Shown piece after piece: positions 1,351-19,165 of a stretch of 64,000 bases of DNA. This DNA comes from Alteromonas stellipolaris (GTDB lineage Bacteria > Pseudomonadota > Gammaproteobacteria > Enterobacterales > Alteromonadaceae): positions 2,356,001 through 2,420,000 of the forward strand of contig NZ_CP013926.1 in assembly GCF_001562115.1 (NCBI RefSeq), read 5' to 3'. Every line of letters begins with the position of its first letter. Position 1 is the first letter of the stretch. The notes below the pieces were generated by a model, which searched no databases, had not been told where the DNA came from, and was given only the letters and a program-made list of their open reading frames with translations. The position numbers were made by a program, and so were the translations under genes.

Positions 1351-1924
1351 ACTCGCCAAGCGACAGTAACAACCCTATTCTGTCTTTGGCGTTTAACTTC
1401 TTCAGAAGCGTGCCTACATGCTCTTTAATCGTTCTTTCTGCGAGCTTAAGGTTTCTCGCAATTTCTTTGTTACTCAAGCCCTCTAGAATACCCGTGAGTA
1501 CATCTCTTTCCCGCGCCGTTAATGTCGCAATTTCAGGTACTTTTTCTTTTAAACTCAGCGTAGTTGCAACTGCTGACGTTGTATTCACATAAAGCTCGTT
1601 GGGTACCCAAATTCCGCCTTCTTTTAACACCCGACTAACCGATTCAAAAAGAGATGGTTGTCCTAGTGCATGACAGTACGCCCTTGCGCCCAATAATAAC
1701 GCGGTCTGCATTTCAGGCCTATCGTAATGAAATGTTAATAAAATAACATTTCGACACTTCCCACTAGCGGCAATAATGTTTTCACGCCAATTTTTATGAA
1801 ATGTCGACACCCAAATACTGTCTTCTTTCTCGCAACGTACACTTTCAATATCAGAAAACTCAACCCAATCTATTGCGTCAACACCAAGATTCTTTTGAGA
1901 TGTATTCATAATATAATGTTTCAT
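1325..1924 (-). CDS. LuxR/NarL-family regulator linked to adhesin secretion genes
   Basis: A 199-residue protein with a clear C-terminal LuxR/GerE helix-turn-helix (LTARERDVLTGILEGLSNKEIA, read in two parts, then ERTIKEHVGTLLKKL). The N-terminal 120 residues have receiver-like spacing but no recognisable phospho-acceptor aspartate pocket, so it is probably an atypical, non-phosphorylated receiver. The start has a good Shine-Dalgarno (AAGGGAG, 7 bases before ATG). It directly follows lapC, with adjacent stop and start, so it is probably the last gene of the lapE-lapB-lapC transcript. A role in controlling adhesin or secretion genes is inferred from position only. Confidence 0.8.
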   Translation of the reverse strand: MKHYIMNTSQKNLGVDAIDWVEFSDIESVRCEKEDSIWVSTFHKNWRENIIAASGKCRNVILLTFHYDRPEMQTALLLGARAYCHALGQPSLFESVSRVLKEGGIWVPNELYVNTTSAVATTLSLKEKVPEIATLTARERDVLTGILEGLSNKEIARNLKLAERTIKEHVGTLLKKLNAKDRIGLLLSLGEFSHLKDAL

Positions 1925-5442: not shown

Positions 5443-5465
5443 TAACCCTCCGCGTCCTTTGCGAA

Positions 5466-7394
5466 TTAAAGCTGAATTATCGTGGCTTCAATTCGACGAT
5501 TTTTTGCATTTGCGGCTAGTGACTCTTCATCAATTAAAGGCCGCGTTTCGCCATAGCCTACCGAGGTAATACGGCGGCTACCTATGTCAGCGGACTCAAT
5601 TAGTAAAGCGGCAACTGCACTCGCTCGCCGTTCTGAAAGGCGTTGGTTATATGCCGCATCTCCATCTAACGAGGCATGACCGTGAATAATAACGCCGGCA
5701 TTGTCATACTGTTCAAGTGCATCAATAACTTGAGCAAGTGACGAGGTGTATTCAGACGAAATTTTGGATGAGTTTGATGCGAATGATATGTTGATACTAA
5801 AAGAGGCTAAAACTTGTGCATCATCTAAGGTGAAATCGGCAGCGCTTGCTGGGGTATTAATGGCTTGAGGTTCAAGTTCAGGTGCACTCGCTTCACATCC
5901 AAAATCATCAACCATGGCACCAGGTGCAGAATTAACGCAATCGTCCCATAGATCGACTATGCCATCTGAATCTGAATCTCGCTTTAAGATATTGCGCTCA
6001 TCATCTAACGATGTTCGGGTAGCTGGGCATACGTGATTGGGATCGTAACGAAGCTCTTTTTCTGCTAATTCACTTACACTGGCTACGCCATTTCTACTCA
6101 CTCCTAACGCTTTAACCAAAACCCCCGACGCAGCCAATAGACGTGCTCTCGCTTTTTCTAATGTATAGGTGGCTTGTACATAAGCTCTGCTCGACTCGTA
6201 ATACTCATTTTCTGAATCGAGCAAATCAAGAAGTGAACGTTCGCCAATAGTGAACTGATCCATATACGCCGACTTAACTCTGTCGGAAGACAATCTGTGT
6301 GCATTTAATGAAGGTAGCTGCTCGCTGATATTTTGAATATCGTTACGAGCAATTTGAATAGTTTGGCGCATATCAACACACGCTTTATCTCTTAAGTCTT
6401 TAGCTAAATCCACCTGTGAAAGTGCTTGCCTAATTGCCGCTCTGTCAGCACCGCCGTTGTATATATTATACGAAAAGTTAACCCCCACACTCGCTTCAGA
6501 AATAGTATTGTTTAACGCCGCTTCGTCTCGAGTTTGCGCCCCGTAACTCGCGGTTAAGTTAACTTGAGGATGATATCGACTTCTTGCGCTATCAATTGCA
6601 AAACGTTGTGCGTCGATATTATAAATTGTTGCATTGAAAGACGGATTAGTTTCGTATGCCGCTAACAATATGGATTCTAAATCCATTGCTACTGACGTAG
6701 GCATAGCCTCTGAAAGTGACACCTCGGCTAATGCTTCTGCAGGTTTCTCCCCAACAAGCCTTAAAAACCTAGCAGTTACATCATGCAAGTTAGACAGTTC
6801 AGTTAATACATTGGACTCTGACAGCGAAAGCCGACCACTAATTTGTTCCAAGTCAGCTCTTCGGCCAACACCTGCTATCACACTTTCTTCGATTTGCTTA
6901 AAGACATCCACATGTGTAATGAGGTTCTTTTCTGCCAATGAAAGCAACTCTCTATAAAGCTGAACATCCATATAAGCCAATGCGGTTTCAAGTGACTTTT
7001 GTTCTATCTCGCCCATCAATTCATAGTAACGAACCACTTGAGCTTGTTTGAACCTACTTACTTCGCTGGAGGTGAAAAAGCCATCGTAAAGTAATTGCGT
7101 TAACCTAATCTCAGCAGTGTGGCCTGCGTAATCTTGATCTAACCCATAATTTCTCTCGGTATAGGCGCTGGAAGCTAGAACGTCAATAGAAGGGAGATAA
7201 CCGGATTTAGCAATATCTACATCTTTCATGGCGATTTGGAGTTGCCGCCAACTGGCCTGAATTTCAGGGTTTGAATTAATAGATTTACTTACATATTGCT
7301 CTAAGGAAGCACTCGCCATTCTGGGCGAGGACTCTTGCGCAGACAAGGAAAATGTTACTAGCCCAAGTAGCCCAAAAATCTGTCTTTTCTTCAT
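5466..7394 (-). CDS. lapE: LapE/AggA-like TolC-family outer membrane protein fused to OmpA domain
   Basis: The first ~430 residues are a TolC-family outer-membrane efflux protein (signal peptide MKKRQIFGLLGLVTFSLSA, two repeats of the coiled-coil/beta-barrel unit). They are followed by a calcium-type acidic repeat (DSDSDGIVDLWDDC, thrombospondin type-3-like) and a C-terminal OmpA peptidoglycan-binding domain (GHASLDGDAAYNQRLSERRA, SVGYGETRPL). Family TolC proteins are about 450 residues, so the OmpA module is an extra fusion; in Shewanella-type loci, as I recall, the two are separate neighbouring genes. It forms the outer-membrane pore of the Lap secreton, and the OmpA domain could anchor it to the cell wall. 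The frame stays open to a TTG at 7445, but the ATG at 7394 starts the signal peptide and is preferred; ATG 7406 is an alternative. Confidence 0.87.
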   Translation of the reverse strand: MKKRQIFGLLGLVTFSLSAQESSPRMASASLEQYVSKSINSNPEIQASWRQLQIAMKDVDIAKSGYLPSIDVLASSAYTERNYGLDQDYAGHTAEIRLTQLLYDGFFTSSEVSRFKQAQVVRYYELMGEIEQKSLETALAYMDVQLYRELLSLAEKNLITHVDVFKQIEESVIAGVGRRADLEQISGRLSLSESNVLTELSNLHDVTARFLRLVGEKPAEALAEVSLSEAMPTSVAMDLESILLAAYETNPSFNATIYNIDAQRFAIDSARSRYHPQVNLTASYGAQTRDEAALNNTISEASVGVNFSYNIYNGGADRAAIRQALSQVDLAKDLRDKACVDMRQTIQIARNDIQNISEQLPSLNAHRLSSDRVKSAYMDQFTIGERSLLDLLDSENEYYESSRAYVQATYTLEKARARLLAASGVLVKALGVSRNGVASVSELAEKELRYDPNHVCPATRTSLDDERNILKRDSDSDGIVDLWDDCVNSAPGAMVDDFGCEASAPELEPQAINTPASAADFTLDDAQVLASFSINISFASNSSKISSEYTSSLAQVIDALEQYDNAGVIIHGHASLDGDAAYNQRLSERRASAVAALLIESADIGSRRITSVGYGETRPLIDEESLAANAKNRRIEATIIQL

Positions 7395-7642
7395 ACCTAC
7401 AGTACTCATATATATAAACAAACCCACATATAAAAGTTTTCTCAACGTGACTTTAGCCTAGTAGTAAATCTAAAGTCCTGCCAAATGATGGCGTGCAATT
7501 ATGTTTAAAATTAGCTAATTAGGGGAATACACCTAGAGAACCATTCGTCATATCACTACCTGTACCACGGTACGGTAACCATTTTCACTATCACTGCTAG
7601 GCTTTACTAGGTATGTAATGTGATAGATGAAAGGGATTTTAA
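7395..7642. promoter_or_regulatory. Divergent promoter region between lapE operon and adhesin gene
   Basis: About 250 AT-rich bases between the oppositely transcribed lapE operon and adhesin. The short inverted repeat GTACCACGGTAC (7562-7573) lies about 70 bases before the adhesin start and could be an operator, perhaps for the LuxR protein of the locus, but that is a guess. No confident -35/-10 pair was assigned. Confidence 0.4.
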
Positions 7643-8656
7643 ATGGTCGATGTAGTTATTGTAGAAGTAAATGGTGAAGTGTTGGTAGAGCGCCCAGAAA
7701 CGGGTGAGCAATTTGCTGTCCGTGAAAACACCACCTTATTGGATGGAGACAGCCTTACAATCCCCGATGGTAGTACAGTGCTTGTCAGTATTGATGGCAT
7801 TGTGAGAGAGTTACCTGCTGGCCAAACTGTTACTTTCCCTCTTCAATTGGCCTTTTCAGATGTTGACAGCGATGACGAATTTGCTGTTTTCGACGACAGC
7901 GTCGAAGATCTTAATGCATTGCTTGATCAAACTGGAGATAGCCAGGATCTCGACCAAGATTTTTTAGACGTACTTGCTGGCGATGATGATATTTTAGAGT
8001 CGTTAGAAGCCACCGCTGCTGGTTTAGATGGTGGCGGCGGTGCAGGTGGCAGTAACTTTGTTCGTGTCGACAGAATTAATGAAAATGTAGATCCCGTCGC
8101 TTTCGAATTTGAGCAAGGCGCCAACGATAACGAAGAGATAACGTCGGAACAGTTGGGTGACGGCGGTGACGAAGCCGCAGACATTACCATCACACTCGAC
8201 GCTATTCCTCTTAATAACGACTCTACCCCGACCTTATCGGGCAACACTGACGCAACGCCAGGTTCTACCGTAACGCTAACGGTGACTGATAGCGCCGGTA
8301 ACGTACAAACGCTTACCACCACTGTACAAGCTGATGGCACCTTCTCTGTGGATGTGCCTGTTGAATTAGCGGAAGGAGAATATTCCGTTGAAGCCAGCGT
8401 TACAGATGCCGCAGGCAATACTGCAACCGATGCAAATACCGGCGAAATTGACACGACTGCACCGGCCATTTCGTTAGATGCACAAGGCACAAACAACGAC
8501 ACTACGCCTACCCTGTCAGGCACTACTGATGCCGCACCAGGTTCGACCGTAACGCTAACGGTGACTGATAGCGCCGGTAACGTACAAACTTTTGCTAAAT
8601 CTACACCAGTGAGCATATTATACATACATGGACTCCTACCTAACCTTTGTGTGTGA
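7643..8656 (+). pseudogene. LapA-type giant adhesin, only the N-terminal 313 codons remain
   Basis: The start has AAAGGG 7 bases upstream. Residues 1 to about 120 match the LapA retention module, with the dialanine protease site TAAG at residues 124-127, then a Gly-rich linker (DGGGGAGGSN) and VRVDRINENVDP. From about residue 185 two Ig-like (Big) repeats begin (PTLSGNTDATPGSTVTLTV and a near copy). The second repeat loses homology after the bases at about 8588 and runs out of frame-specific sense to a TGA at 8656. Intact adhesins of this family have thousands of residues and end in RTX repeats and a C-terminal secretion signal. Both are absent and do not reappear in the window. The product would carry a LapG site but could not be recognised by the exporter. 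Confidence 0.85.
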
Positions 8657-8697
8657 CAACGTAAATGTTAGACCAACCTATTAGGTTGTGGAGTCCA
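8588..8697. mobile_element. Probable relic of insertion-sequence ends at the adhesin breakpoint
   Basis: The sequence joins the adhesin remnant to the first attC site. It contains an inverted pair TGGACTCC (8629-8636) and GGAGTCCA (8690-8697), 53 bases apart, with a smaller palindrome AACCTATTAGGTT between them. An ATGGACTCC is also found upstream of the IS110-family transposase remnant (10561-10569). This suggests the ends of a related element whose interior was lost. The region also holds ACCTAAC (8638-8644) and GTTAGACC (8667-8674), which look like attC core boxes. Interpretation is tentative. Confidence 0.35.
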
Positions 8698-8699
8698 AT

Positions 8700-8779
8700 T
8701 ATCTCGCTGGGACGCATACACGCGGGGCGGCTTCGCCATTATGCCCCACGTGCCTGCGCCCGTTATTGAAAAGTTAGAT
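8700..8779 (+). other. attC-like recombination site at left end of cassette array
   Basis: An imperfect stem joins bases 8709-8728 (GGGACGCATACACGCGGGGC) to 8743-8761 (GCCCCACGTGCCTGCGCCC) around a GGCTTCGCC mini-hairpin, followed by an R' core GTTAGAT at 8773. The recombination point would be between G8773 and T8774. It is very similar to the site at 12005-12103, as expected for cassettes collected by one integron. The 5' half of the cassette that owned this site is missing. Confidence 0.75.
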
Positions 8780-8794
8780 GGCACGGAAAGCTCA

Positions 8795-9349
8795 ATGAAA
8801 ACCCTAATTATCACTGATATATTCGGTAAAACCGAACCTTTAACCGAATTGGCTTCATTAATTTGTCAGGAGCATTTGATCTTAGATCCGTACAATGGCA
8901 AAAATATGGATTTTTTAGATGAGGAAACGGCCTATCGTTATTTCTCGGAAAATATCGGTCTCAAAAATTACACTTGCGCACTCAAAAACTTACTAGTAAA
9001 CACCTCTGCGCCTATTCAACTTATTGGATTTAGTGTTGGTGCATCAGCAATCTGGAATATCTCAAACGATGCAACGATTTGTCATAATGTAAAAAGCGCA
9101 ATCTGCTACTACGGCTCACAGATAAGAAATAACAAAGATATCACTCCTTTATTTCCTATCGAACTGCGATTTCCAATCAAAGAGGAACATTTTTCAGTTG
9201 GGGAGCTTATTTCTAGTTTAAGCAACAAATGTAATGTTAAAATCAAACAAGTCCCTCACTTACACGGCTTTATGAATAAGTACTCTAATAATTATAACCA
9301 AGAGGGGTTTAAATCTGAGATTCAGACTTATGAGAAATGTGCCATCTAA
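8795..9349 (+). CDS. Cassette-borne alpha/beta hydrolase (dienelactone hydrolase-like)
   Basis: 184 residues starting at ATG 8795, about 20 bases after the cassette boundary. An upstream in-frame ATG (8741) lies inside the attC hairpin and is rejected. The nucleophile elbow GFSVG, a strand with YYGSQIRN and a late His in PHLHGFMN are consistent with a small dienelactone-hydrolase-type alpha/beta hydrolase. The substrate is unknown. The cassette begins with GTTAGATGGC (8773-8782) and the gene ends inside its exact reverse complement GCCATCTAAC (9341-9350), so the TAA stop is part of the attC core. This is a hallmark of a genuine integron cassette. Confidence 0.7.
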   Translation: MKTLIITDIFGKTEPLTELASLICQEHLILDPYNGKNMDFLDEETAYRYFSENIGLKNYTCALKNLLVNTSAPIQLIGFSVGASAIWNISNDATICHNVKSAICYYGSQIRNNKDITPLFPIELRFPIKEEHFSVGELISSLSNKCNVKIKQVPHLHGFMNKYSNNYNQEGFKSEIQTYEKCAI

Positions 9350-9352
9350 CAA
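9341..9352 (+). other. attC R'' core of the hydrolase cassette, interrupted by an IS
   Basis: GCCATCTAAC at 9341-9350 is the perfect reverse complement of the core at the start of the same cassette. The expected attC hairpin does not follow. Instead the sequence passes directly into IS110-family DNA. A candidate matching R' core, GTTTAGC, lies on the far side of the element at 10665-10671. Confidence 0.65.
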
Positions 9353-9394
9353 ACGACTATGGTTTCAACTCCCTCGTTAAACCGTTTTTTCTTC

Positions 9395-10522
9395 TCACGT
9401 GACTCCATCTCTAACCATTGAGATTAATATGACAACCATCTTCCTCACACAGGCAATGATGGCGACTTTCTTCGGTTTCCCTGCGGCCACTAACCTCTTA
9501 TAAGTGGCTTTAAACTTAGCATTGCACTGCATCGCTGACATCATGGCCATAAATAAGACCGTTCGAAATTGACGTCGCCCTCCTTGAGTAATTTGCTTAC
9601 CCTTATATCGGCCACTTTCTTTGTTCGTCGTAGTTGAATATCCGTCGAGATATTGGTTGGATACCGATAACTATGCGCAACCTCAATGAGTAAACGCCTT
9701 GCTCTGCCGTTGCCGGCTTTAGTAACAGCGCCTAAATGCCGCTTTTCACCTGATGATTGCTCACTAGGCACTAGCCTTAAATACGCCATAAGCTTTCTCG
9801 GGTGGTCGAATCGGTGTAAATCACCAAGTTCCGCAACAACCCCAACCCCACTAGCAGCCTCACACCACGCATTGCTTGAATCGCTTTAACGACAGGATAA
9901 TAACGCCACTGGTGTACATGATGGGTTAGCTCATTGTCCAGCCTTTCTAAGCGGCTAATCCGCTCTTCAATAGTCTGCAGCTGTTCCTGCAATACGATTT
10001 GCTGCGCCGGATGAGGTAATATCAGTTCGGTCAGCCACCGCAGATGTTTTTTGACCAATTTGCTGTACCTTCGTAACGAATATTACTTCGAAGCAACACC
10101 GCTTTGAGTTGGTACTTGGCTTCTTTTAAATTCTTCATTGCCGCTTCGCGAGCGCGGGATAAGTCACGTACCGCTTCATCTTCAGGCTCAGGAACATAGA
10201 TAGGTGTAAGATCTTCCGACTTTAGCAACTTCACTAATTTAAGTGCATCACGGCGGTCAGTCTTAATCCGTTCACCAGGCTTTTTGGGTATAAGGGACGG
10301 CGCTACAACATAGCAACAATGCCCTGCTTCGTAAACCACATGAATTGTCGCGCCCGGATACTTCGATTCAAACTGACGAATGAGCTTTTTGACGCTGACT
10401 TTTGAAGAAGGAATGCGGCCATAGTGCACCGCACTTGCTCCACGCGGCTCTTCACGATAAGCCACTTCATGGAATTTTTTGTGAGTATCTAATCCTAAAA
10501 AAACTATGCTATGTTTGTTCAT
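9395..10522 (-). pseudogene. IS110-family transposase, frameshifted and mosaic
   Basis: The start at ATG 10522 has a strong GGAGG 6-10 bases upstream. The N-terminal DEDD domain is clear (FLGLDTHKKFHEVAY; later IKTDRRDALKLVKLLKSE). The frame then shifts near 10045 and again near 9868, where the frame giving GVVAELGDLHRFDHPRKLM is not the one used before it. The middle part contains LRLVPSEQSSGEKRHLG and RARRLLIEVAHSYR. Near 9620-9640 the frame and family signature change once more to a different IS110 C-terminus (GRYKGKQITQGGRRQFRTV, then RLVAAGKPKKVAIIACVRKM), ending at a TGA at 9395-9397. Two alternative C-terminal ends in series imply a fusion of two related elements. No active transposase can be made. 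Confidence 0.8.
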
Positions 10523-10624
10523 GCTAGCCTCCAAATGATTTAGTCTTAAGCAAACTAATAATGGACTCCGACCGGCGCTCCGGTGGCTATTTAAGCTAAC
10601 CCACGAAAATGCGGAGGCTAGCAT
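10521..10624. repeat. 12-bp perfect inverted repeat upstream of IS110 transposase
   Basis: ATGCTAGCCTCC (10521-10532) pairs with GGAGGCTAGCAT (10613-10624). The inner copy includes the transposase Shine-Dalgarno and start codon on the - strand. A transcript starting outside the right arm could therefore fold and hide the ribosome binding site, a common way for insertion sequences to block read-through expression. ATGGACTCC (10561-10569) lies in the loop. Confidence 0.6.
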
Positions 10625-10674
10625 TTCTCAGGGAGTCATTGTGTCTATGCCCAATCAAGGAAGAGTTTAGCTAC

Positions 10675-11337
10675 ATGAACTTAGTGCTTTTTGATTTCGA
10701 TAAAACCATAATAAATAGAGATACTGGCGCTGCGTACATGAAGTTCATGCTTTACCGAAACCCTTTACGCCTATTGTTTTGTTGTCTGTCATTGCCAATC
10801 TCTACCCCATTTTTATTCCATGCGAAGACTAAATATATAGGATTCTCGATACTTTTATAGTTAGCAACACTTGGAATCAGCACCAAGAAAATTGTTTATC
10901 TTCGTAAGTCGTTCATCCGAATGTACCTCAATGACAGCTCAACTATAATTTTTAAAGACGCTGTCCAAAAACTATTCTTACACTTTTCAAATACAGATGA
11001 AGTTGTAGTCGTTAGTGGGGCTTCAGACTGGATGGTCAAAGCCATTTTCACTCATAATCATTTCCCTAACGTAAAGTTCGTCTGCTCTAAAGAAACTCGC
11101 TTTTTCGGCGGCATTATTAGTAAATTTCACTGTTACGCATCTAGAAAAGTAGAACGTGTCCAGGAACTTTTTGATTTAGAAAAATATGACTTAATTATTG
11201 GCTACTCAGACAGTTCAGTCGATATCCCAATACTTAAACTTTGCAATAAGCGATATATTGTTAACCCTACCCCAAGTTGCTTTAAAAAATTTACTAGGTC
11301 GTTCAATAAGGAAATGGTAATTTTAAGTTGGGCATAA
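10675..11337 (+). pseudogene. Cassette-borne HAD-IB family phosphatase-like gene with in-frame TAG
   Basis: Motif I DFDKT sits at the N-terminus (VLFDFDKTIINRDTG). An amber codon at 10858-10860 interrupts the frame, which then continues unchanged to 11337 with motif II (VVVSGASDWM) and motif IV (GYSDSSVDIPIL). No frameshift is needed to join the halves; one base change (for example TGG to TAG) explains it. The hydrophobic part before the stop (RNPLRLLFCCLSLPIS) is the cap-region helix seen in HAD-IB proteins of the SerB-like/lipid phosphatase type. The gene ends in GCATAAC, an attC-type core. It is either inactivated or needs amber read-through; TAG ends other genes in the window (trhO, cmoM), so it is a normal stop here. 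Confidence 0.75.
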
Positions 11338-11577
11338 CAAACGAATAAATTCGCTCCTACGTTCGCTGGGACAAAAACACGTAGGCTCCCTGCTCTTCGC
11401 TTGGTATTTTAACCCATATGAATACGAAGCGGCATATGCTTAACATGGATGTCCACTTTTAGTGGGTAAGACCAATCCCAGTAAAACATCGCCTGTCGCC
11501 CCACTGTCGTGTGAATTTCGTAACCGACAATAGATTAAAACATGGATAGTCCCCTCTCACATTGGTAAGGAGCCCGA
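11338..11577 (+). other. attC-like region after the HAD cassette; no gene seen
   Basis: It begins with the core GCATAAC and the shared motif TTCGCTGGGAC, and contains a 7-bp hairpin CCTACGT (11356-11362) / ACGTAGG (11379-11385). The rest has no convincing coding frame. It holds a small perfect hairpin CCACT-TTT-AGTGG at 11453-11465 and the leader of the XRE gene, with GGAG 9 bases before its ATG. The downstream R' core is not clear. Confidence 0.5.
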
Positions 11578-11991
11578 ATGATAGTCAAACGTCTTAGAGA
11601 AAAACGAAACTGGTCGCAAGAACAACTTGCCACGTTAAGTGGCTTGAGCACGAGAACTATTCAACGAATAGAAAGTGGAAATAAAGCCAGCATAGAATCT
11701 CTTAAAGCCCTTGCCTCTGTGTTTGAAATTGACATTTCTAAACTTCAAGAGGAAATTATCGTGATAGACAAAACATCTAAAGAATGGAACAAAGAGCCAT
11801 TGTGGGTCAGGTTTTCGTTTTGGGGAGTAAAAGCAAGAAAGCAAATTATCATGTTAGAAATGATAACCGTGCTCTTGGGCCTACTAACTTGGCTCATAAA
11901 ACCCGACGTATTTGCCACGCCGGCATTTTTTCTTTTAGCTTACATCTTTTCTAACATGAAGCATTATATTGATACGAAAAAATATTGGTGA
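11578..11991 (+). CDS. Membrane-tethered XRE-family transcriptional regulator
   Basis: 137 residues. Positions 1-55 are a canonical XRE/Cro helix-turn-helix (VKRLREKRNWSQEQLATLSG, then TRTIQRIESGNKAS). The C-terminal half has two hydrophobic segments (about 93-110 and 113-128: MITVLLGLLTWLI and PAFFLLAYIFS), predicting a DNA-binding protein anchored in the inner membrane by a helical hairpin. HTH plus short two-helix membrane tails are a known architecture, but the targets are not predictable. The gene is a cassette cargo followed at once by an attC-like site, so it probably regulates little outside itself unless it acts in trans. Confidence 0.75.
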   Translation: MIVKRLREKRNWSQEQLATLSGLSTRTIQRIESGNKASIESLKALASVFEIDISKLQEEIIVIDKTSKEWNKEPLWVRFSFWGVKARKQIIMLEMITVLLGLLTWLIKPDVFATPAFFLLAYIFSNMKHYIDTKKYW

Positions 11992-12004
11992 GTGGCGATA
12001 TAAA

Positions 12005-12103
12005 AAATTCAATAAACTCACTTCTTTCGCTGGGACGCACACGAGCAGGGCGATTTCGCCATGATGCCCTACGTGCCTGCGCCCCACATTTGAAATGTTA
12101 GGC
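12005..12103 (+). other. attC-like recombination site
   Basis: Long imperfect hairpin: left arm 12032-12051 (GGGACGCACACGAGCAGGGC), right arm 12066-12084 (GCCCTACGTGCCTGCGCCC), with a GATTTCGCC internal loop, ending in the core GTTAGGC at 12097-12103. It is the best-formed site of the array and close in sequence to the one at 8700-8779. The recombination point would be G12097/T12098. Confidence 0.8.
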
Positions 12104-12119
12104 GCTTTTAGGATAATCA

Positions 12120-12626
12120 ATGCTTATCAATCCTTTAGTTGAACTTGAAGATAGCTATTTAAACTACATCAAAGAATTGGGTAGCGAAGAACGTTATCCC
12201 TATCCAATGGATTTAGATTACTCAAACTTTCCTGCTTTTGTTCAGTTGCTAAACGATTATTCAGAGGGTATCAACTTACCCAGTCACATGGTGCCCAATA
12301 CCACTTTCTGGCTTATCGAAAACCAAGAAATTATTGGCTGCTCCCATTTACGGCACACATTAAACGACTCATTAAAACATGCTGGCGGACATATCGGGTT
12401 AGGTGTAAGGCCTCGTTATCGCGGCAAAGGCGTTGGAAAACGTTTGTTATCTCAAACCATCGAGCGAGCTAATAGAATGGGTATTTCAGCGGTGCATATT
12501 CACTGCTACAAAAGCAATATCAGCTCTACAAAGCTCATAGAATCTTCTGGCGCAATACTACATTCAACTATAGATTTAGAGGATAGTTCGGAAACGGTAC
12601 TTAGGTTTATTCATGAGCACACCTAA
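12120..12626 (+). CDS. Cassette-borne GNAT family N-acetyltransferase
   Basis: 168 residues with the GNAT acetyl-CoA loop (HIGLGVRPRYRGKGVGKRLL, R/Q-x-x-G-x-G/A form RGKGVG) near residues 96-115, preceded by strand GCSHLRHT and followed by HIHCYKSNISSTKLIESSGA. An AGGA ribosome site lies 6 bases before ATG. The acceptor substrate is not predictable. The TAA stop is inside the core ACCTAAC (12621-12627), and the cassette opens at GTTAGGCGC (12097), so both ends of a single cassette are visible. Confidence 0.88.
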   Translation: MLINPLVELEDSYLNYIKELGSEERYPYPMDLDYSNFPAFVQLLNDYSEGINLPSHMVPNTTFWLIENQEIIGCSHLRHTLNDSLKHAGGHIGLGVRPRYRGKGVGKRLLSQTIERANRMGISAVHIHCYKSNISSTKLIESSGAILHSTIDLEDSSETVLRFIHEHT

Positions 12627-12721
12627 CAACTTAATAAACTCACTTCGTTCGCTAGGACGCATACACGTGTGCTATTTCACGTTTAACCCTACGCGGCATT
12701 ACCCCTATTTGGAGCGCTAGC
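12621..12721 (+). other. attC-like site after the GNAT cassette
   Basis: It starts with ACCTAAC and shares the block CACTTCGTTCGCTAGGACGC with the other sites, with a partial palindrome ACACGTGT. The 3' core is degenerate (GCTAGCAG instead of GTTRRRY). The matching CTGCTAGC occurs after the next gene near 13065, which suggests that the next cassette uses this altered core pair. Confidence 0.6.
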
Positions 12722-12726
12722 AGTCA

Positions 12727-13053
12727 ATGGAAGCTACGAAGACAACATCATTTATAGCTGGTGCACTAATAATACTCAGCGATGCTGTTATTGAATTTTA
12801 TTCTTTTCCATGGGGCGTTTTCGCGTTCATTTTCTTCTTTTTATTTATTTTTTTAGTTATTGGTAAGCAAATTACTAATGAATATGAGCGCCAAATACAC
12901 AGAAGGCACGAACTAGATGAAAACCCATGGAAAGACACTGTGAGTTTACGTTTTAACTTCAATTTAGTTGTACGTTTATTGCTTTTTTGTTTAGGTATAA
13001 TATCTACAGTAGAACTAATAAACTTAGAATTTGGCATTCAACAACCCGTTTAA
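12727..13053 (+). CDS. Cassette-borne small membrane protein, function unknown
   Basis: 108 residues with three predicted membrane helices (about 8-26, 28-46 rich in Phe/Ile, and 83-100) and a basic, charged cytoplasmic loop between the second and third (ERQIHRRHELDENPWKD). I do not recognise the family. No clear Shine-Dalgarno precedes ATG 12727. Its position between a degenerate attC core and a CTGCTAGC sequence marks it as cassette cargo. Confidence 0.55.
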   Translation: MEATKTTSFIAGALIILSDAVIEFYSFPWGVFAFIFFFLFIFLVIGKQITNEYERQIHRRHELDENPWKDTVSLRFNFNLVVRLLLFCLGIISTVELINLEFGIQQPV

Positions 13054-13225
13054 ATCATTCGCGCTGCTAGCTAGGTCGCTAATACATGGACAGTATCTCT
13101 TAGCTCCTAATTTTAGCCCACATATATTTGCCATTTCCTGGTGGGGGTTAAGTTTCAATCACACTTTTGTATAAAAAAATTTTAGTGGTTCTGTAATAAA
13201 TTTCTTAGATTTAAGACTACTATCT

Positions 13226-13249
13226 TTGACAATCAGGTTTTATTGTCAA
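13226..13249. promoter_or_regulatory. Perfect inverted repeat, possible operator/promoter
   Basis: TTGACAAT (13226-13233) and ATTGTCAA (13242-13249) form an 8-bp perfect dyad with an 8-base spacer, about 40 bases before the next gene. The left arm doubles as a consensus-like -35 (TTGACA). This would suit a self-regulated cassette promoter, unusual because most cassettes rely on an external promoter. The flanking 13054-13225 stretch holds a weak attC-like start and no gene. Confidence 0.45.
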
Positions 13250-13287
13250 TTTCATTAAATCAGTAGTTAATATTAAGGGCGAATAAA

Positions 13288-13539
13288 ATGGAATACATCG
13301 ATAGTATTTTGGCAAGTGACAACTACGCATTTATAGGCTTTTTACTCGTTGGGGTTTTAATCCTCTGGTTCCTTCCAGCATTGCTTGCTTTGGCTTTTAA
13401 TAGAAAGCAATTCAAATATATATTGCTTGCTTGTATTCCCGCGGGCTTTTCTCTAATAGCATGGGGAGGAGTAATGGTTTGGGCTACAACGGGCAAAGCA
13501 ATTGGTAAATATGCAAATAAAGCCAGTAGTGAGAATTAA
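13288..13539 (+). CDS. Superinfection-immunity-like small membrane protein
   Basis: 83 residues, two membrane helices. The pattern LWFLPALLAL, a short basic turn (FNRKQFKYI), then AWGGVMVWATTGK resembles the Imm superinfection-immunity family (typified by phage T4 Imm), in which an inner-membrane protein blocks DNA entry of related phages. Assignment rests on this motif order and length alone. A good AAGGG site lies 8 bases before ATG, and a dyad that may be a promoter/operator is upstream. As cassette cargo it would fit the known enrichment of phage-related functions in integrons. Confidence 0.55.
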   Translation: MEYIDSILASDNYAFIGFLLVGVLILWFLPALLALAFNRKQFKYILLACIPAGFSLIAWGGVMVWATTGKAIGKYANKASSEN

Positions 13540-13584
13540 AAAGTACATATACGCCCTGCCTTACAAAACTGAATAAGGAACAAG

Positions 13585-13821
13585 ATGCCAATTAGAAAAT
13601 GGATATTTCAATACAGTATCGCTTTGCCCCTGGTATTCGCGTTACTTTCAGGCATTCAATACATTAAAGGACATACGCTTTCTTACTCCGTCGTTTTTGG
13701 TATAACGTGGTCTTTTATTTCAGTAGCTATATTTGCCACTCGAAGAGCTTATAATTTTAAGAAAAATATCGACTGCCAATTATGTAACGACTTAACCCAA
13801 AGTGATTCACATCAAAAGTAG
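13585..13821 (+). CDS. Cassette-borne small membrane protein, function unknown
   Basis: 78 residues with two predicted membrane helices (about 8-24 and 33-50), a positive-inside cytoplasmic patch (RRAYNFKKN) and a short tail with a Cys pair (CQLC). Ribosome site AAGGAA is 5 bases before ATG. No family recognised. It may share a cassette with the preceding gene, because no attC core is visible in the 45 bases between them; the next attC-like site follows at 13835. Confidence 0.55.
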   Translation: MPIRKWIFQYSIALPLVFALLSGIQYIKGHTLSYSVVFGITWSFISVAIFATRRAYNFKKNIDCQLCNDLTQSDSHQK

Positions 13822-13834
13822 GTTTAAAACATTA

Positions 13835-13925
13835 CTTATGGGTTATTTACCAAGTAAATTCACTTGTTGCGCGGGCTGGGATTAAAACAAGTGTGCTGAC
13901 TTGCTTCACCTCTGAGCCGTTTAGC
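13835..13925 (+). other. attC-like recombination site
   Basis: It contains the shared block GGGCTGGGATTAAAACAAGTG and a complementary pair CACTTGTT / AACAAGTG flanking it (about 13861-13892), ending with the core GTTTAGC (13919-13925). Less regular than the two best sites. Confidence 0.55.
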
Positions 13926-13999
13926 ATTAGCTAATCTTAAATAGTAATGAAACAAACTTTAAAAAGTAACATCTTTTAAAAAATGAAAGGAAGCAAACG

Positions 14000-14938
14000 G
14001 TGTTGAAAATAGTTAAATATTTTAGCTTTATAGTTCTCATCATATTAATTTTGTTAGTTGGGTTTGTATTCATTACTCCAATGACATTCGACTCTAGTAC
14101 TCCCCCTTTGAACTATGGAAAAGTTGATGCTGAGCTGTTTTTGGGTGAAGGTAAGGAACAGCCTTTACTTGTATACTTTGGCGGTAGTGAAGGCGGAAAT
14201 AGTATGACAAAGCCTCATAACATTAAAGAAAGACAGCAGTATATTGATCAAGGATATGCGATGTTAGCTGTTGGATATTTTGGTATGGAAGGTATACCTC
14301 AAGAGCTAGATCGAATTTCTTTAGATGCTATTTATAATGAAATAGTTCTAACATTAAATAACCCAAGACTAAATTCGAATTGTGTCGCTGTTATGGGGGG
14401 CTCTAAGGGAGCTGAATTAGCACTTACCTTGGCTTCTAAATACACACGAATCAATGGTGTTGTTTCATTAGCTGGAAGTCATGTTGTATTTGCCGGCCCT
14501 TCTTTTTTTGCTGATGGCAAAACCTCTTCATTTATGTTTAATGACCAAGAGCTCCCTCACGTACCACTAACGCTGAATATTTTACCATCAGTTTTAATGG
14601 GCAATTTACGACGTGCTCATGAAATAGCACTAATGGATATTGATTCGGTCGAGGAGGCTAGAATAAAGGTAGAGGATGTTAATGGACCTATCTTATTAGT
14701 TTCCGGTGAAAAAGATCACATATGGCCTTCACAAGAAATGTCAGAAGAAGTAATAGAGAGATTAAAAACAAAGGGCTTCCCCCATCCTTTTAAACATATC
14801 GCTGTACCTAACGGAAATCATTTTCAACCTCAAAATGATTTCCAACCGGAAGTGATTAAATTTTTGAATGAAAAATTCTTGCCTTACTGCGATGCTCATC
14901 ATCAGAACATCGCCGTTGACACCCAAAAAAGCATTTAA
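14000..14938 (+). CDS. Cassette-borne membrane-anchored alpha/beta hydrolase (BAAT C-terminal domain type)
   Basis: 312 residues. One N-terminal membrane helix or uncleaved signal (about 5-28) is followed by an alpha/beta hydrolase of the bile-acid-CoA acyltransferase/acyl-CoA thioesterase C-terminal type. The nucleophile elbow GGSKG sits in VAVMGGSKGAELALTLAS, the acid in SGEKDHIWPS and the His in GNHFQP. Probably an acyl hydrolase or thioesterase with its catalytic domain outside the membrane; substrate unknown. GTG 14000 is preferred (AAAGG 9 bases upstream) over TTG 14003. The gene ends in GCATTTAAGC, close to an attC core, and GCTTAAGC follows about 55 bases later. Confidence 0.72.
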   Translation: MLKIVKYFSFIVLIILILLVGFVFITPMTFDSSTPPLNYGKVDAELFLGEGKEQPLLVYFGGSEGGNSMTKPHNIKERQQYIDQGYAMLAVGYFGMEGIPQELDRISLDAIYNEIVLTLNNPRLNSNCVAVMGGSKGAELALTLASKYTRINGVVSLAGSHVVFAGPSFFADGKTSSFMFNDQELPHVPLTLNILPSVLMGNLRRAHEIALMDIDSVEEARIKVEDVNGPILLVSGEKDHIWPSQEMSEEVIERLKTKGFPHPFKHIAVPNGNHFQPQNDFQPEVIKFLNEKFLPYCDAHHQNIAVDTQKSI

Positions 14939-15030
14939 GCTCGTAAACTCGTTCGCAAAATTAACAATACGCTATTGTCGCTGTGCTCAATAATGCTTAA
15001 GCTTATGTTGACGTTTTACAAGGATGATTT

Positions 15031-15450
15031 ATGAAACCAGTACTTTTAATATTGTTACTAGGCCTGTATGCATGTTCCCCTTCCCCTGAAGATTTAGCGA
15101 ATATAGCAAGTCAGCAGTTCAGGGAAAGTGGCGAAACAGAAGAGACTTGGCTACATGACGGTGAACTCCATTTTTCCACCGCATTCGAATGGCAAAAAGC
15201 TTCTTTTCAAAATAAACGGGCGACTTCTTCAGATTTTCTATTAGCGCTCGACGAACAAGGACGGCTGGTAATTAACATTGCTGACAATCAAAGTTTAAAA
15301 ATACATAGCGAAGAACTTACCCGAAAATTAAACAAGCAATTCGAAATTATTGGTCCGGCAGTTCATAACAAAAACAAATACAAAGACCAATTAATTAGTG
15401 ATTCCGTCGTTTTAATAGCATCTCAGAATGGTTGGCTAAAAAACATATAA
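15031..15450 (+). CDS. Cassette-borne lipoprotein, function unknown
   Basis: 139 residues with a short lipoprotein signal (LLILLLGLYAC, lipobox Cys at residue 15). The mature part is mixed alpha/beta with no recognised domain (FLLALDEQGRLVINIADN is the most regular strand pair). Good AAGGA site 7 bases before ATG. The gene ends ATATAAC, attC-like, and a short spacer leads to the next cassette gene. Confidence 0.6.
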   Translation: MKPVLLILLLGLYACSPSPEDLANIASQQFRESGETEETWLHDGELHFSTAFEWQKASFQNKRATSSDFLLALDEQGRLVINIADNQSLKIHSEELTRKLNKQFEIIGPAVHNKNKYKDQLISDSVVLIASQNGWLKNI

Positions 15451-15536
15451 CAAATAAATCAACTAATAATAAGCGGGGCTTTAAGCTTTCTAGCCGCAAA
15501 CTTTCCACATAATCAGTTTTTAACGTAGGTAAATAA

Positions 15537-15917
15537 ATGGAACTCAATCAGGTTACTTTACCAGTAAGCAATATGGATGATGCTGTTGGTTTTTACTTAA
15601 AGCTTGGCTTCACACAAATTGTCGACACACCTCACTATGCTAGATTTTCTTGCCCAAATGGAAACGCTACATTTTCTTTATCTCTTGAAAATGAAGTGTT
15701 TGAAAATAAGTCGGTAATTTATTTTGAACACGAACACCTTGATGAGCTTTACCAAAATTTATCTCAAAAAGGTATTCAGTTTATACAACCCCCTACTGAG
15801 CAAAGTTACCTTTGGAAAGAGGCTATTCTAAAAGACCCTTCTGGTAATAAGATCAAACTCTACTGGGCGGGCGAAAACCGCTTAAATCCGCCGTGGAAAG
15901 TAGAAATACGCGAGTAA
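15537..15917 (+). CDS. Cassette-borne VOC/glyoxalase-fold protein
   Basis: 126 residues with the paired beta-alpha-beta-beta-beta units of the vicinal-oxygen-chelate fold: QVTLPVSNMDDAVGFYLKLG at the start and KDPSGNKIKLYWAGEN near the end. The usual first metal-ligand His is replaced (TLPVS), so it may not be a metal-dependent enzyme; some relatives are drug-binding (bleomycin resistance) proteins. Such proteins are very common integron cassette cargo. It ends GAGTAAC and a GTTAGAT core lies at 15937-15943, but the 33 bases between are shorter than a normal attC. Confidence 0.8.
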   Translation: MELNQVTLPVSNMDDAVGFYLKLGFTQIVDTPHYARFSCPNGNATFSLSLENEVFENKSVIYFEHEHLDELYQNLSQKGIQFIQPPTEQSYLWKEAILKDPSGNKIKLYWAGENRLNPPWKVEIRE

Positions 15918-16013
15918 CACGCACTTGAAAGTACTCGTTAGATTGCTTGCTTTAAATATCAGTAAATTATTTCTAGCCGTCTATTGCGGCGTTTACATCA
16001 AGGAAGAATTGTA

Positions 16014-16340
16014 ATGTTCGTCGTAATGTTTGAGTTCGTAGTAAAGACTGGATATGAAGAGCAATTTCTTTCCGCATGGCCCAAAACCACGCAAGGTATT
16101 TTCCTATTCAAAGGAAGTCTAGGTTCTCGTTTACATAGGCATAAGAACGATACTTTTATCGCTTACGCTCAATGGCCAGATGAAGAAACCTATCGCCAAG
16201 CCGCTAAAATCGAAATGAGCGCCGCATATGAACAGCAACGTCAATTAATGCGAGAAAGCCTTAATTTAGAATCAACAAAAACCTTGTATGAAATGGAAGT
16301 TGAAATTGATTACTTACATCGTAGAGTCTTTGATGTATAA
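16014..16340 (+). CDS. Cassette-borne antibiotic biosynthesis monooxygenase (ABM)-like protein
   Basis: 108 residues from ATG 16014, chosen for the AAGGAAG site 7 bases upstream; an in-frame upstream ATG (15984) lacks one. The dimeric alpha-beta barrel pattern is visible: FVVMFEFVVKTGYEEQFLSAW, then FIAYAQWPDEETYRQAA. ABM-fold proteins act as heme- or quinone-modifying monooxygenases or as small dimeric binding proteins; no specific substrate can be assigned. Ends TATAAC, attC-like. Confidence 0.75.
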   Translation: MFVVMFEFVVKTGYEEQFLSAWPKTTQGIFLFKGSLGSRLHRHKNDTFIAYAQWPDEETYRQAAKIEMSAAYEQQRQLMRESLNLESTKTLYEMEVEIDYLHRRVFDV

Positions 16341-16427
16341 CAATAAATTGAGCAACGGCTGACACGGCCTAAGTCGTAAACATGGTTGCCAACTGGCTTC
16401 GTAATAAGTGTCTTAAGGGCTAAATTT

Positions 16428-16943
16428 ATGGCAAGAGAAAAATGGTACAGAAACCCAGAGATGATAATCGCACTCACAGCTCTGTTTATTGGACTGCTTA
16501 CCGCTTTCATTTCAATTTACTCTGCTTACACTGACCGCGCCTATGCTAAAGCTTCGGTATGGCCTAAAATTGAAATTTCTAGAAGCCATAATACTAATTC
16601 TTTTAGTTATGGCGTTGCCAATAAGGGAACTGGCCCAGCGCTCATCAAGTACGCAAAAGTTTATTCGGGTACGAAATTTCTAAAAAAATGGTCAGAATTT
16701 CCAGAATTCAAAAATATATCTCAATCCCATTTAAATAATACTACTTTGCCGTCGGGTCACTCTATAACACCTCTAAAATACAAAGGTGAGTCGGTTTCGG
16801 ATATATTAGCTATAGATGATAATATTGAAATAGAGCTCTGTTATTGCTCAATTTATGAGGATTGTTGGGTAGTTGATCGCACAAATATAACCCAACCAGT
16901 TAATTCATGTTCAGTCCGCTCTGAACACGCATTTTGGCAATGA
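16428..16943 (+). CDS. Cassette-borne protein with one membrane helix, unknown function
   Basis: 171 residues from ATG 16428 (AAGGG 9 bases upstream). An N-terminal anchor (MIIALTALFIGLLTAFISIY, about residues 11-30) precedes a soluble domain rich in short strands (SYGVANKGTGPALIKYAKVY) with a Cys-containing segment (ELCYCSIYEDCWVV). The segment NKGTGPALIK is seen in many small single-pass proteins of unknown role found near mobile elements. No enzyme motif was found. A GTTAGAT core begins 9 bases after the stop. Confidence 0.6.
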   Translation: MAREKWYRNPEMIIALTALFIGLLTAFISIYSAYTDRAYAKASVWPKIEISRSHNTNSFSYGVANKGTGPALIKYAKVYSGTKFLKKWSEFPEFKNISQSHLNNTTLPSGHSITPLKYKGESVSDILAIDDNIEIELCYCSIYEDCWVVDRTNITQPVNSCSVRSEHAFWQ

Positions 16944-16982
16944 AGTAATTAGTTAGATTGGCGCTTAGTCAGTTCTATTGTT

Positions 16983-17084
16983 GTGGTAACTGATGTAGCC
17001 AAATCAGATTTAGAATTATCCAAAGGTGCATGGATACTTTATTTAGCTTACATATTACCGCCCTCATTGGATTGTTATTTTTAA
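16983..17084 (+). pseudogene. Remnant of a small membrane protein cassette
   Basis: After the core GTTAGATTGGC (16952-16962) a frame reads VTDVAKSDLELSKGAWILYL, then a hydrophobic run that stops at 17082. Shifting by one base inside the run restores PALIGLLFLRN-like membrane sequence. The pattern resembles short two-helix proteins of the PLDc_N type. Probably a frameshifted cassette gene. Confidence 0.35.
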
Positions 17085-17091
17085 GGAATAT

Positions 17092-17475
17092 ATGCGTAGC
17101 ATCCAAATTTTAGGCTTAATATGCGCACTGGCTGCTCTAGTAGTTACGTACTGGTCAATGTTTATCATAACTCCGGTATCAAATGGGTCTGCCGCAAGTT
17201 CGGTCGGCTTAGTATTAATGTTTGTTGTCGTTCCTTTATTTGGACTTTCTGCCACTTTATTAATCCCATCTTCCTTAGCTTTACTGAACGCTAAGTTAAG
17301 GAGAGCCACCTTTATTTTCGGAAAATTTTGGTACGGTATATGGGCCATTAATAGCTTTTTTTTCATTGGCCTATTTAGCTATCGGGTTATACTTTTGTTC
17401 CCTGTATCTTGTTGTTGGGCTTGTAAATTAATTGGGCTATTACTAAAGCCTTTATTTCGAACTGGTAACGGCTGA
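17092..17475 (+). CDS. Cassette-borne integral membrane protein, unknown function
   Basis: 127 residues with three or four predicted membrane helices (about 5-24, 37-60, 80-100, 104-120) and little soluble sequence. The segment VSCCWACKLIG carries three cysteines close to the last helix. Good AAGGA ribosome site 7 bases before ATG. No family recognised. It is followed by a 75-base spacer ending in the core GTTAGGC (17550). Confidence 0.5.
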   Translation: MRSIQILGLICALAALVVTYWSMFIITPVSNGSAASSVGLVLMFVVVPLFGLSATLLIPSSLALLNAKLRRATFIFGKFWYGIWAINSFFFIGLFSYRVILLFPVSCCWACKLIGLLLKPLFRTGNG

Positions 17476-17556
17476 AGGTATTTTCGCTTTACCATAAACT
17501 CCAACGCGCCTCCAATTGGCAATATTTGATCTAGCTAAAACGGCAACTCGTTAGGC
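17476..17556 (+). other. attC-like spacer ending in GTTAGGC
   Basis: The spacer after the membrane-protein cassette ends in GTTAGGCAT (17550-17558), whose exact reverse complement ATGCCTAAC occurs at 17924-17932. These two mark the ends of the next cassette. The hairpin itself is poorly conserved. Confidence 0.5.
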
Positions 17557-17577
17557 ATTGGAAAAAGGGAAAAGCTA

Positions 17578-17931
17578 ATGAGACAGTTTCTTTTAGGTTT
17601 GTTTGTATCAACCCTGCTTGGTGCTGCTATTTTATTTTTTTCACCCTTTTTTATCGGTGAAATTGAGCCTTGGATCTCATCCTATTACTACACTGGCGCG
17701 CTACTATTGGCAGGGTTTATAGTGCTTATTGATCGGCATGCTTCTTACGAAAGCGTTTTTATAGGCATTATGCTTTAGCAAGCTATTTGCTTGTTTAATT
17801 TTATACCTGTAGATTCACTGGTCGGGGTCGCCTTGGTTATTATGGCCTTCAAGAGCTTATTGTCTTGTGTAGGTCTATTGTTAAAGTCCGCACTTATTAA
17901 CATTCTGTACGTGATTAAAGGGGATGCCTAA
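17578..17931 (+). pseudogene. Cassette-borne membrane protein with in-frame TAG
   Basis: ATG 17578 starts a membrane protein (helices about 3-23 and 38-53) that meets TAG at 17776-17778. The same frame stays open without a shift for 50 more codons, adding two hydrophobic segments (DSLVGVALVIMAFKSLL, LLLKSALINILYVI), and ends at a TAA that lies exactly in the attC core ATGCCTAAC. That exact fit shows that the full 117-codon frame is the original gene and that the amber codon arose later, or is read through. Function unknown. Confidence 0.65.
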
Positions 17932-17977
17932 CACCATGTTATCTGCAAAGCTGCGCCCTACTCACTCGCCGTTTGAA
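17924..17977 (+). other. attC-like site at right end of cassette array
   Basis: ATGCCTAAC (17924-17932) to GTTTGAA (17971-17977), 54 bases, close to the minimum attC length. The internal hairpin is weak. No cassette boundary is recognised to the right, so this is taken as the end of the array. Confidence 0.5.
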
Positions 17978-18037
17978 AGATAATCTTAATTGCCTTAGAG
18001 AATTTCACATAACAATTTAAAAATAGGGAAATATATA

Positions 18038-19165
18038 GTGAAAAGGATACTTTACGGATTGTTACTTATATTGGGAAGCCAATGTAACGCGTGGTCAGTT
18101 GAAACAGTATTTACAACCGAAGACTTAGTTATAAATAGTAAAAAGCTTGGTGAAACACGTAACCTTGTAGTGTATTTGCCTGCAGGTTACTTAAAAAGCG
18201 ACGCACACTACCCTGTATTGTATGTAACAGATGGTGATATTCAGGGGCCTCATACTGCGGGTACGATAGATTATTTGGCAAAATTCGATCAGGCACCACA
18301 GATGATTATTGTGGGTATTGTGAACCCTCGTGAAACACGCGAAAGAGACTTAACCTTAACCAGTGCAAATAATCAAAACCCACAGCAGTTAGTAAATGCA
18401 GACCTGTTTTTAGCTTTTGTTGAGCAAGAAGTGATACCCGAAGTAAAAGCGCGCTATCGTACTTTAGATTACCAAGGGTTGGCTGGCACCTCACACGGGG
18501 GACAATTTGCTATTAATGCTTTAGTGAAACGACCAGGTTTGTTCAATGGTGTTGTAGCAGTAAGCCCATCTCTATATTGGAATAAAAGCCAGTTACTTAC
18601 ATTAACTGAAAACGCGTTAAAGCAAGGCAGTTTACAAGGGCGTTTGTATATTTCTATAGCACAAGAAGAGCCTACAATGACTGAGCCCTTCGCCAACTTT
18701 GTTGCACTAACAAAGCGTTACCCTAACCAGCAATTTGCTGTAACCAGCCAAATGTTTAGTAATGAAACGCATAACACCACTGCATTACTTGGTCAGTACT
18801 ATGGTGTGAAGTATTTATTTAATGGTTGGGCAATACCTGAAACACCGCAAACCTTAGCCGATTTACAGGCTATCTTTGCAACACGTTCGTCATTGTTAAA
18901 AACATCGATGATTATTCCCGAAGATCGGGCTGCTGGTTATGGGCAGTGGTTACAGTATTTAAACAGGCAAGACGATGCGCTAGCCCTGCTTAAATGGAAT
19001 ACAGAAAATTACCCACATTCTTTAAATGCACATACCGCACTGATCAATGCTTACCTTCATTTTAATATGGAAGATGAAGCTAAACAGGCGCTTGGTACAG
19101 CGTTGCGGTTAATTAAAGGGCTTAGCACAGAACAAAAAGAACAACTTCAAAGTTTGTTCTCTTAA
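18038..19165 (+). CDS. Secreted alpha/beta-hydrolase esterase (esterase D/Fes-like)
   Basis: 375 residues. A signal peptide (about 1-18, MKRILYGLLLILGSQCNA) is followed by a putative-esterase domain: LYVTDGDIQG, nucleophile elbow GTSHGGQFAINAL, and a His in NETHNTTALLG. The last ~100 residues look like TPR-type helices (YLNRQDDALALLKWNTENYP). Relatives include enterochelin esterase-like and acyl-ester hydrolases of the periplasm. GTG start with AGGGA 9 bases upstream. No attC core follows it, so it is probably chromosomal rather than cassette cargo. Confidence 0.78.
   Translation: MKRILYGLLLILGSQCNAWSVETVFTTEDLVINSKKLGETRNLVVYLPAGYLKSDAHYPVLYVTDGDIQGPHTAGTIDYLAKFDQAPQMIIVGIVNPRETRERDLTLTSANNQNPQQLVNADLFLAFVEQEVIPEVKARYRTLDYQGLAGTSHGGQFAINALVKRPGLFNGVVAVSPSLYWNKSQLLTLTENALKQGSLQGRLYISIAQEEPTMTEPFANFVALTKRYPNQQFAVTSQMFSNETHNTTALLGQYYGVKYLFNGWAIPETPQTLADLQAIFATRSSLLKTSMIIPEDRAAGYGQWLQYLNRQDDALALLKWNTENYPHSLNAHTALINAYLHFNMEDEAKQALGTALRLIKGLSTEQKEQLQSLFS

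Follow-up and report, generated by a model that had tools for sequence, protein, structure and literature searches.

We analyzed a stretch of 64,000 nucleotides from the chromosome of Alteromonas stellipolaris (contig C1, positions 2356001–2420000), which is called the window in the following and in which a gene cassette array without an integrase adjoins one part of a giant adhesin gene that is split in two. The genome (G000) comprises 4.90 Mb on two contigs, C1 and C2, and was compared with a set of 59 genomes of the genus. A first-pass annotation made from the window alone had placed the array inside the adhesin locus, at 8700–17977, and had suggested that integron mobility might be linked to loss of adhesion. 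We propose instead that the array is an old satellite array, i.e., a cluster of attC sites lacking an integron integrase (CALIN), and that a large inversion very probably brought it to the adhesin gene. The array is flanked and entered as follows:

7643–8589, plus strand: 5′ fragment of the adhesin gene, with the retention module and about 1.5 repeat units (NF033682 retention_LapA, 62.8 bits; NF033510 repeat, 70.8 bits)
8589–8590: right-hand breakpoint of the proposed inversion, where the adhesin 5′ fragment is joined to an insertion sequence (IS) remnant; partner at C1:1203504 (L010:504)
8590–8697, minus strand: remnant of 108 bp of an IS110-family (IS1111-like) element, sitting in an attC site, with the transposase start on the minus strand
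18038–19165, plus strand: esterase gene (PF00756, 74.7 bits), the right flank of the array and outside it

Rfam models at their gathering scores found no match in the window, and we therefore built our own attC model. The covariance model R1 was made from 18 attC sites of the genome's resident integron array and none from the window, and was run without filters so that every window position was scored. RNAalifold put only 10 pairs on the underlying alignment; R1 therefore captures mainly the sequence of the resident attC family and could miss attC sites of another family in the array tail. Moreover, three resident control sites and 13 window stretches were folded as single-stranded DNA. The controls gave z-scores of −2.1, −2.5 and −4.2. 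All R1 sites in the array lie on the plus strand:

8672–8779: attC site 1 (87.4 bits, E 1.7e-16; fold z −4.2)
11332–11472: weak attC-like site (30.9 bits, E 1.9e-4; fold of 11332–11445 borderline, z −1.6)
11998–12103: attC site (72.7 bits, E 2.3e-13; fold z −1.1)
12621–12722: degenerate attC site (50.3 bits, E 1.4e-8; fold not significant)
13036–13153: weak hit (about 31 bits, E 2e-4), after which no R1 site follows in the tail

Three R1 matches at E<=1.4e-8 inside 4.1 kb, together with two weaker ones, make up an attC cluster. In site 1 the left arm is replaced by the IS end, so that attC proper spans 8698–8779; over 75 bp it shares 99% identity with one resident attC, and it is 96% identical to three more. 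The 11 folded stretches other than 8672–8779 and 11998–12103 had z-scores between −1.7 and +1.4, with 13822–13945 borderline at −1.7, and between about 13.8 and 18.0 kb neither R1 nor folding yielded a significant attC site. A lone R1 match far from the array, at 58768–58840 (23.6 bits, E 0.007), is the only other one below E 0.5 in the 64 kb and is probably due to chance.

The core strings on which the first-pass annotation had relied are all present, i.e., GTTAGATGGC at 8773 (reverse complement at 9341), GTTAGGCGC at 12097, GTTAGATTGC at 15937, GTTAGATTGGC at 16952 and GTTAGGCAT at 17550 (reverse complement at 17924), and the pairs 8773/9341 and 17550/17924 are exact. As such strings are common and a loose core pattern also matches inside open reading frames (ORFs), a core alone is no evidence. 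Neither R1 nor folding lends support to those at 15937, 16952, 17550 and 17924. The covariance-model check that had been proposed for the whole array hence bore out its left end, with the R1 sites at 8672–8779, 11998–12103 and 12621–12722, and gave no significant structure from about 13.8 kb on. We conclude that the left part is a true cassette array because of its strong R1 sites. The right part has the look of an old array in decay, unless it carries sites of a family foreign to R1.

A genome-wide search for intI, likewise proposed earlier, gave five hits with TIGR02249, only one of which passed the cut-off of 265 bits. This sole integron integrase is an intact frame of 322 amino acids (aa) at C1:636416–637363 (461 bits), outside the window, and beside it lies the resident array with 22 R1 hits at C1:624–636 kb, 18 of which had trained R1. 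The window array, 1.7 Mb away, has no intI beside it as a complete integron would. With no integrase nearby and an intact IntI at this distance, it is a CALIN satellite in an integron-bearing genome. Both the absence of IntI from the window and the CALIN label thus proved right for the array itself; the genome is nevertheless integron-positive, and the window array is one of its satellite arrays.

The adhesin 5′ fragment combines an N-terminal retention module with repeats and is hence of the LapA type. Searching with it, we located the remainder of the gene at about C1:1191–1203.5 kb on the opposite strand. This 3′ part has neither a start nor a retention module and carries further frame breaks near C1:1191.7 and 1192.7 kb (L114:15734–16744). 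The first-pass annotation had named an integrase in this missing segment as a possible refutation of its reading; no intI was found near it with the resident IntI in tblastn (best E 2.9). Five of eight relatives searched with the 5′ fragment have the adhesin, with open frames of 6748 aa (G048), 4409 aa (G047), 6373 aa (G025), 2385 aa (G056) and 5181 aa (G007), and no match was found in the other three (G018, G030, G042). The single open frame of G048 matches both fragments of A. stellipolaris together with their outer flanks, and window positions 1–8589 align with this locus at 91%. A stretch of 51 bp is exactly common to both cut ends; the break may have duplicated it, or it may represent the repeat in two copies. 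From the state of the two fragments, a surface-held adhesin has likely been lost in this genome.

At the partner junction the reading order is a DEAD-box helicase gene, a terminator-like hairpin, the core GTTAGGTGCC, about 350 bp that we read as a putative decayed cassette, an IS481-family end of about 100 bp, and then the adhesin 3′ part. On the window side, the adhesin is followed by the 108 bp of the IS110-family element inside attC and then by the array. From both orders it follows that the two adhesin cut ends face the two sides of one array locus, with matching polarity. The inversion so defined spans C1:1203504 to 2364590, i.e., 1.16 Mb or about a quarter of the chromosome. Placing the adhesin-side end of the partner junction at an IS terminus was considered and dropped, as sequences from relatives put it about 100 bp inside the IS481-family element.

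We checked this arrangement against marker order in G048. TonB-receptor hits of both genomes (73 and 67 rows) were paired by score, range and frame length, which yielded 52 reciprocal pairs. The 10 pairs located within 1.2035–2.3646 Mb all have the same orientation in both genomes, and all 42 pairs outside have opposite orientations. If the terminus lies near mid-chromosome, the flipped piece, given dnaA at C1:130, is confined to one replichore and stops close to that point; no dif-like site was found in the window with an E. coli pattern. GC skew was positive in 8/9 samples from 0 to 1.2 Mb, negative in 8/10 inside the flipped piece and negative in 11/12 beyond it. This fits a recent flip inside one replichore, and a false assembly would look the same.

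An assembly error would indeed produce the same marker order and the same skew, so that neither excludes it. Both junctions might then be artefacts of two repetitive loci, the adhesin repeats and the attC array. The two loci are repeat-rich, the junctions are known from the assembly only, and the frame breaks in the adhesin 3′ part would suit a faulty sequence. Nevertheless, the joins are reciprocal, every paired marker between them is inverted, and we found no repeat common to the two sides at the joins, hence a false join driven by repeats is not expected. We consider an artefact improbable.

The unbroken counterpart of the array locus is found in relatives. In G048 the helicase and esterase genes lie 14 kb apart in one contiguous block with a cassette array between them, and array pieces on the esterase side match the window from about 12.08 kb onwards at 91–96% identity. 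In Alteromonas sp. MMG017, whose esterase is 92% identical to that of the window, pieces of the array tail (93–97% DNA identity) lie beside the esterase; the helicase side is not on that stretch. G025 and G056 hold helicase, cassette DNA and a pseudouridine-synthase block together in one 20-kb stretch, with parts of the array tail beside that block. The esterase, which adjoins the array at the same place in G048 and MMG017, was not found there in G025 and G056 and may be a later arrival at the locus.

These loci bear directly on the view that the resident integrase inserted cassettes at a secondary attG site in the adhesin gene, whose remainder moved away later. Cassette insertion at non-classical attG sites has reportedly been described by Loot et al. 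in 2024, and an intact IntI is present in the genome. However, the same array tail stands between helicase and esterase in G048, by the esterase in MMG017 and in part in G025 and G056, and the adhesin frames of G048 (6748 aa) and G025 (6373 aa) are open. Moreover, neither junction falls on the attC/attI crossover (G^TT) of an attC core beside a cassette start; both lie inside IS sequence, at 8590 in a T tract at the start of the IS110-type transposase gene and at the partner junction inside the IS481-family element. As the array-side breakpoints are inside IS remnants and not at attC cores, integron recombination is not implicated, and we regard an attG insertion as extremely unlikely. The position of the array between a broken adhesin and an esterase was thus correctly described, but the adhesin ends at an inversion breakpoint (8589/8590) and not at inserted cassettes. 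The suggested link between integron mobility and adhesion loss is not supported either: no intI was found near the adhesin remainder, the same tail occurs at the helicase/esterase locus of G048, whose adhesin frame is unbroken, and no junction lies at a crossover.

Insertion sequences of the IS1111 type that target attC sites are known (PMC11187229; reportedly also Tetu and Holmes in 2008). The element in the window matches this picture in its location. Its remnant shares 98% identity with a resident-array copy, whose ends TGGACTCCCC and GGGGAGTCCA lie in attC arms, and the right end of the window copy is in attC as well. Both ends of this IS110-type element occur about 1.1 kb apart in G050, G041, G007, G024 and G018; in the two of them whose frame was read out the transposase is open, and that of G024 is assigned to the IS110 family with 253.8 bits (cut-off 140). 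The resident-array copy (L021:1535–1740) has an internal deletion, and its right end falls in the same T tract as the window breakpoint at 8590; this tract is possibly a fragile spot. Compared with the attC-targeting IS1111-type elements in the passages of PMC11187229 considered here, the likeness is that attC sites, both in the resident array and in the window, harbour an element of the IS110/IS1111 type; the difference is that the window copy is a remnant of only 108 bp.

Both array-side ends lie in IS sequence, which would also suit homologous recombination between an IS copy in the adhesin and an inverted one in the array. The remnants are, however, of different families (IS481 and IS110) and each only about 100 bp long, and no full IS copy, which a homologous exchange would leave behind, is present at either junction. 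We hence rate this route as very unlikely, somewhat below an assembly artefact.

Our preferred explanation, which we hold with high confidence, is an ancestral CALIN between helicase and esterase and a non-homologous inversion of 1.16 Mb into the adhesin repeats. In this Alteromonas clade a satellite array would have lain between the DEAD-box helicase gene and the esterase/pseudouridine-synthase block, its cassettes presumably brought there by the resident IntI acting in trans. One end of the inversion would have fallen in this array and the other in the adhesin repeat region, which would have fused the adhesin 5′ end to the tail part of the array, as in the window, and the adhesin 3′ part to its helicase-side end. 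The array-side ends probably broke inside two neighbouring IS copies with loss of the DNA between them, and such an illegitimate inversion seems the simplest account. The array, both junctions, the unbroken arrangement in relatives and the marker order, on which this explanation builds, are directly observed. None of the titles listed in our literature searches names this inversion.

Several points weigh against it. The 51-bp adhesin stretch at both cut ends does not follow from it. The supposed decayed cassette has no DNA relative in the 59 genomes; of 25 query matches, one is the locus itself and the other 24 are confined to the IS end. Three of the 42 outside marker pairs break collinearity, probably through mispairing, and GC skew misfits occur in 2/10 samples inside the flipped piece and in 1/9 on its left. 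Finally, the explanation rests on the assembly of one strain, in which an error is possible, and the manner of the break is something that we infer.

We further examined the helicase-side end of the array, its head. A 210-bp query from the helicase side was compared with helicase loci from the best 30 of the 59 genomes, mostly with 1.5 kb of flank, so that displaced copies could be missed. In six species the head flank is conserved up to about one GTTA, at its own locus and in G047, G048, G025, G018 and G056 (relatives 75–96% identical over 167–204 bp). Similarity stops 1 to 11 bases past a sequence ending in AAATTGTTA, with the longest run-on in G018. Over the next 700 bp the six loci are dissimilar, apart from attC stretches in three loci past position 430, and among the 30 helicase loci only those of G047, G048 and G025 have attC within 1.5 kb. 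With increasing distance from the head, attC scores in G048 drop from 122 to 18 bits for hits at E<=1, and the Spearman coefficient is −0.95 over 10 sites, of which two are weaker than E 0.1. It is as if the array grew at its head and decayed at its tail, in the manner of an integron fed at attI; such a slope would also be expected if the tail consisted of other attC families. The corresponding value for the window array rested on three hits with E above 2 and was not used. Two consensus promoters were found before the array head against 1.4 expected, and these were not used either.

The G018 locus differs in what follows the flank (L077, G018:C39, below 16957): after about 700 bp come unrelated genes that lack attC. 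Since no attC was found within 17 kb after the head flank, this locus has been rearranged or emptied, and it is perhaps another rearrangement at the same place.

The end of similarity at the head and the falling attC scores in G048 suggest that the array grows polarly at one base without a neighbouring integrase. The helicase-side end may hence be a fixed integration site in trans, where an integrase 1.7 Mb away, presumably the resident IntI, keeps adding cassettes at the same base; this is a tentative proposal, in which our confidence is somewhat short of even. Alternatively, the array could derive from a second, once complete integron whose intI has been lost, and not have been built in trans by the resident integrase. 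Apparent growth from a fixed, attI-like upstream flank would agree with this, as would the last 12 bases of the flank, which equal those of the resident attI at the crossover, and PMC8618304, in the passages considered here, proposes intI loss as well as off-target insertion as CALIN routes. Against a second integron, the flank compared with the resident attI over 200 bp is no better than chance (59/300 shuffles as good), and tblastn found no intI remnant (best E 2.9) in 15 stretches that cover this locus in A. stellipolaris and its relatives. This origin, which concerns the array only, appears rather unlikely, though clearly less so than the rival accounts of the junctions.

The remaining features of the locus comprise the secretion genes beside the adhesin fragment, the cassette genes and a second IS:

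1925–7445, minus strand: type 1 secretion genes beside the adhesin 5′ fragment, named by reading the ORFs
8795–9349, plus strand: dienelactone-hydrolase-like cassette ORF of 184 aa, with the exact reverse-complement cores at 8773 and 9341
9376–10640, minus strand: second, degenerate IS110-family element, limits set by eye, in three ORF pieces (one fragment at 84.8 bits with NF033542, short of its cut-off of 140)
10675–11337, plus strand: HAD-family cassette ORF broken into two ORF pieces (PF12710, 37.6 bits on the second)
11578–11991, plus strand: ORF of a helix-turn-helix protein (PF01381, 55.7 bits)
12120–12626, plus strand: GNAT acetyltransferase cassette ORF (PF00583, 51 bits), common to G048 (95% DNA identity)
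12727–17995, plus strand: old array tail, with small membrane proteins and a lipoprotein (assigned by eye), a BAAT-type hydrolase, a glyoxalase and an ABM monooxygenase

The product of 8795–9349 matched 744 of 770 candidates at E<=1e-3, and among the 120 listed several are named dienelactone hydrolase by their source; the longer frame 8741–9349 had no Pfam or NCBIfam match. The second IS110-family element is matched at 85% identity over 1.06 kb in the array of G048, and the tail shares pieces at 91–97% identity with G048 and MMG017. PADLOC matched one of 10 array ORFs, with generic helix-turn-helix models only, and hence we claim no defence role.

Further attC sites were seen in a genome-wide map, which is a lower bound, as 150 of 1589 candidates were scored. 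A second large cluster lies at C1:2631262–2649977 (L115, L116) with sites on both strands, including two attC sites back to back around C1:2638051–2638058 with overlapping R″ ends. Scattered matches to the attC model, some of them weak, occur at 859, 1631, 5599, 108998 and 218746 on C2 and at 1375245, 1380813, 1567233, 1567840, 1568365 and 3630717 on C1.

Integrase-less attC regions have been found in this genus before. Lopez-Perez et al. 2014 (PMC4119200), in the parts considered here, report attC sites at two further regions in Alteromonas genomes, one of which is missing or nearly so in A. australica. The likeness lies in the genus and the extra attC regions; no gene neighbours are given there, so identity with the present locus is not established. 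The words ‘adhesin’ and ‘inversion’ are absent from its main text, which describes synteny as well kept except in strain SN2. Xanthomonas CALINs (PMC12444791) are similar in that they lack an integrase, lie away from intI and occupy relatively conserved positions in the chromosome. They belong to another genus, and the passages considered contain no fixed crossover base with a species-specific first cassette.

The window array is hence a real, partly decayed satellite CALIN of a known kind, and it owes its extraordinary look to the inversion breakpoint. This corrects the tempting reading that cassettes were inserted into the adhesin gene, and it adds a case of an IS-loaded cassette array as one end of a megabase inversion in one replichore. 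If the head site is true, it would be a natural case of a distant integrase repeatedly feeding cassettes to one chromosomal base, and would bear on the origin and persistence of integrase-less arrays.

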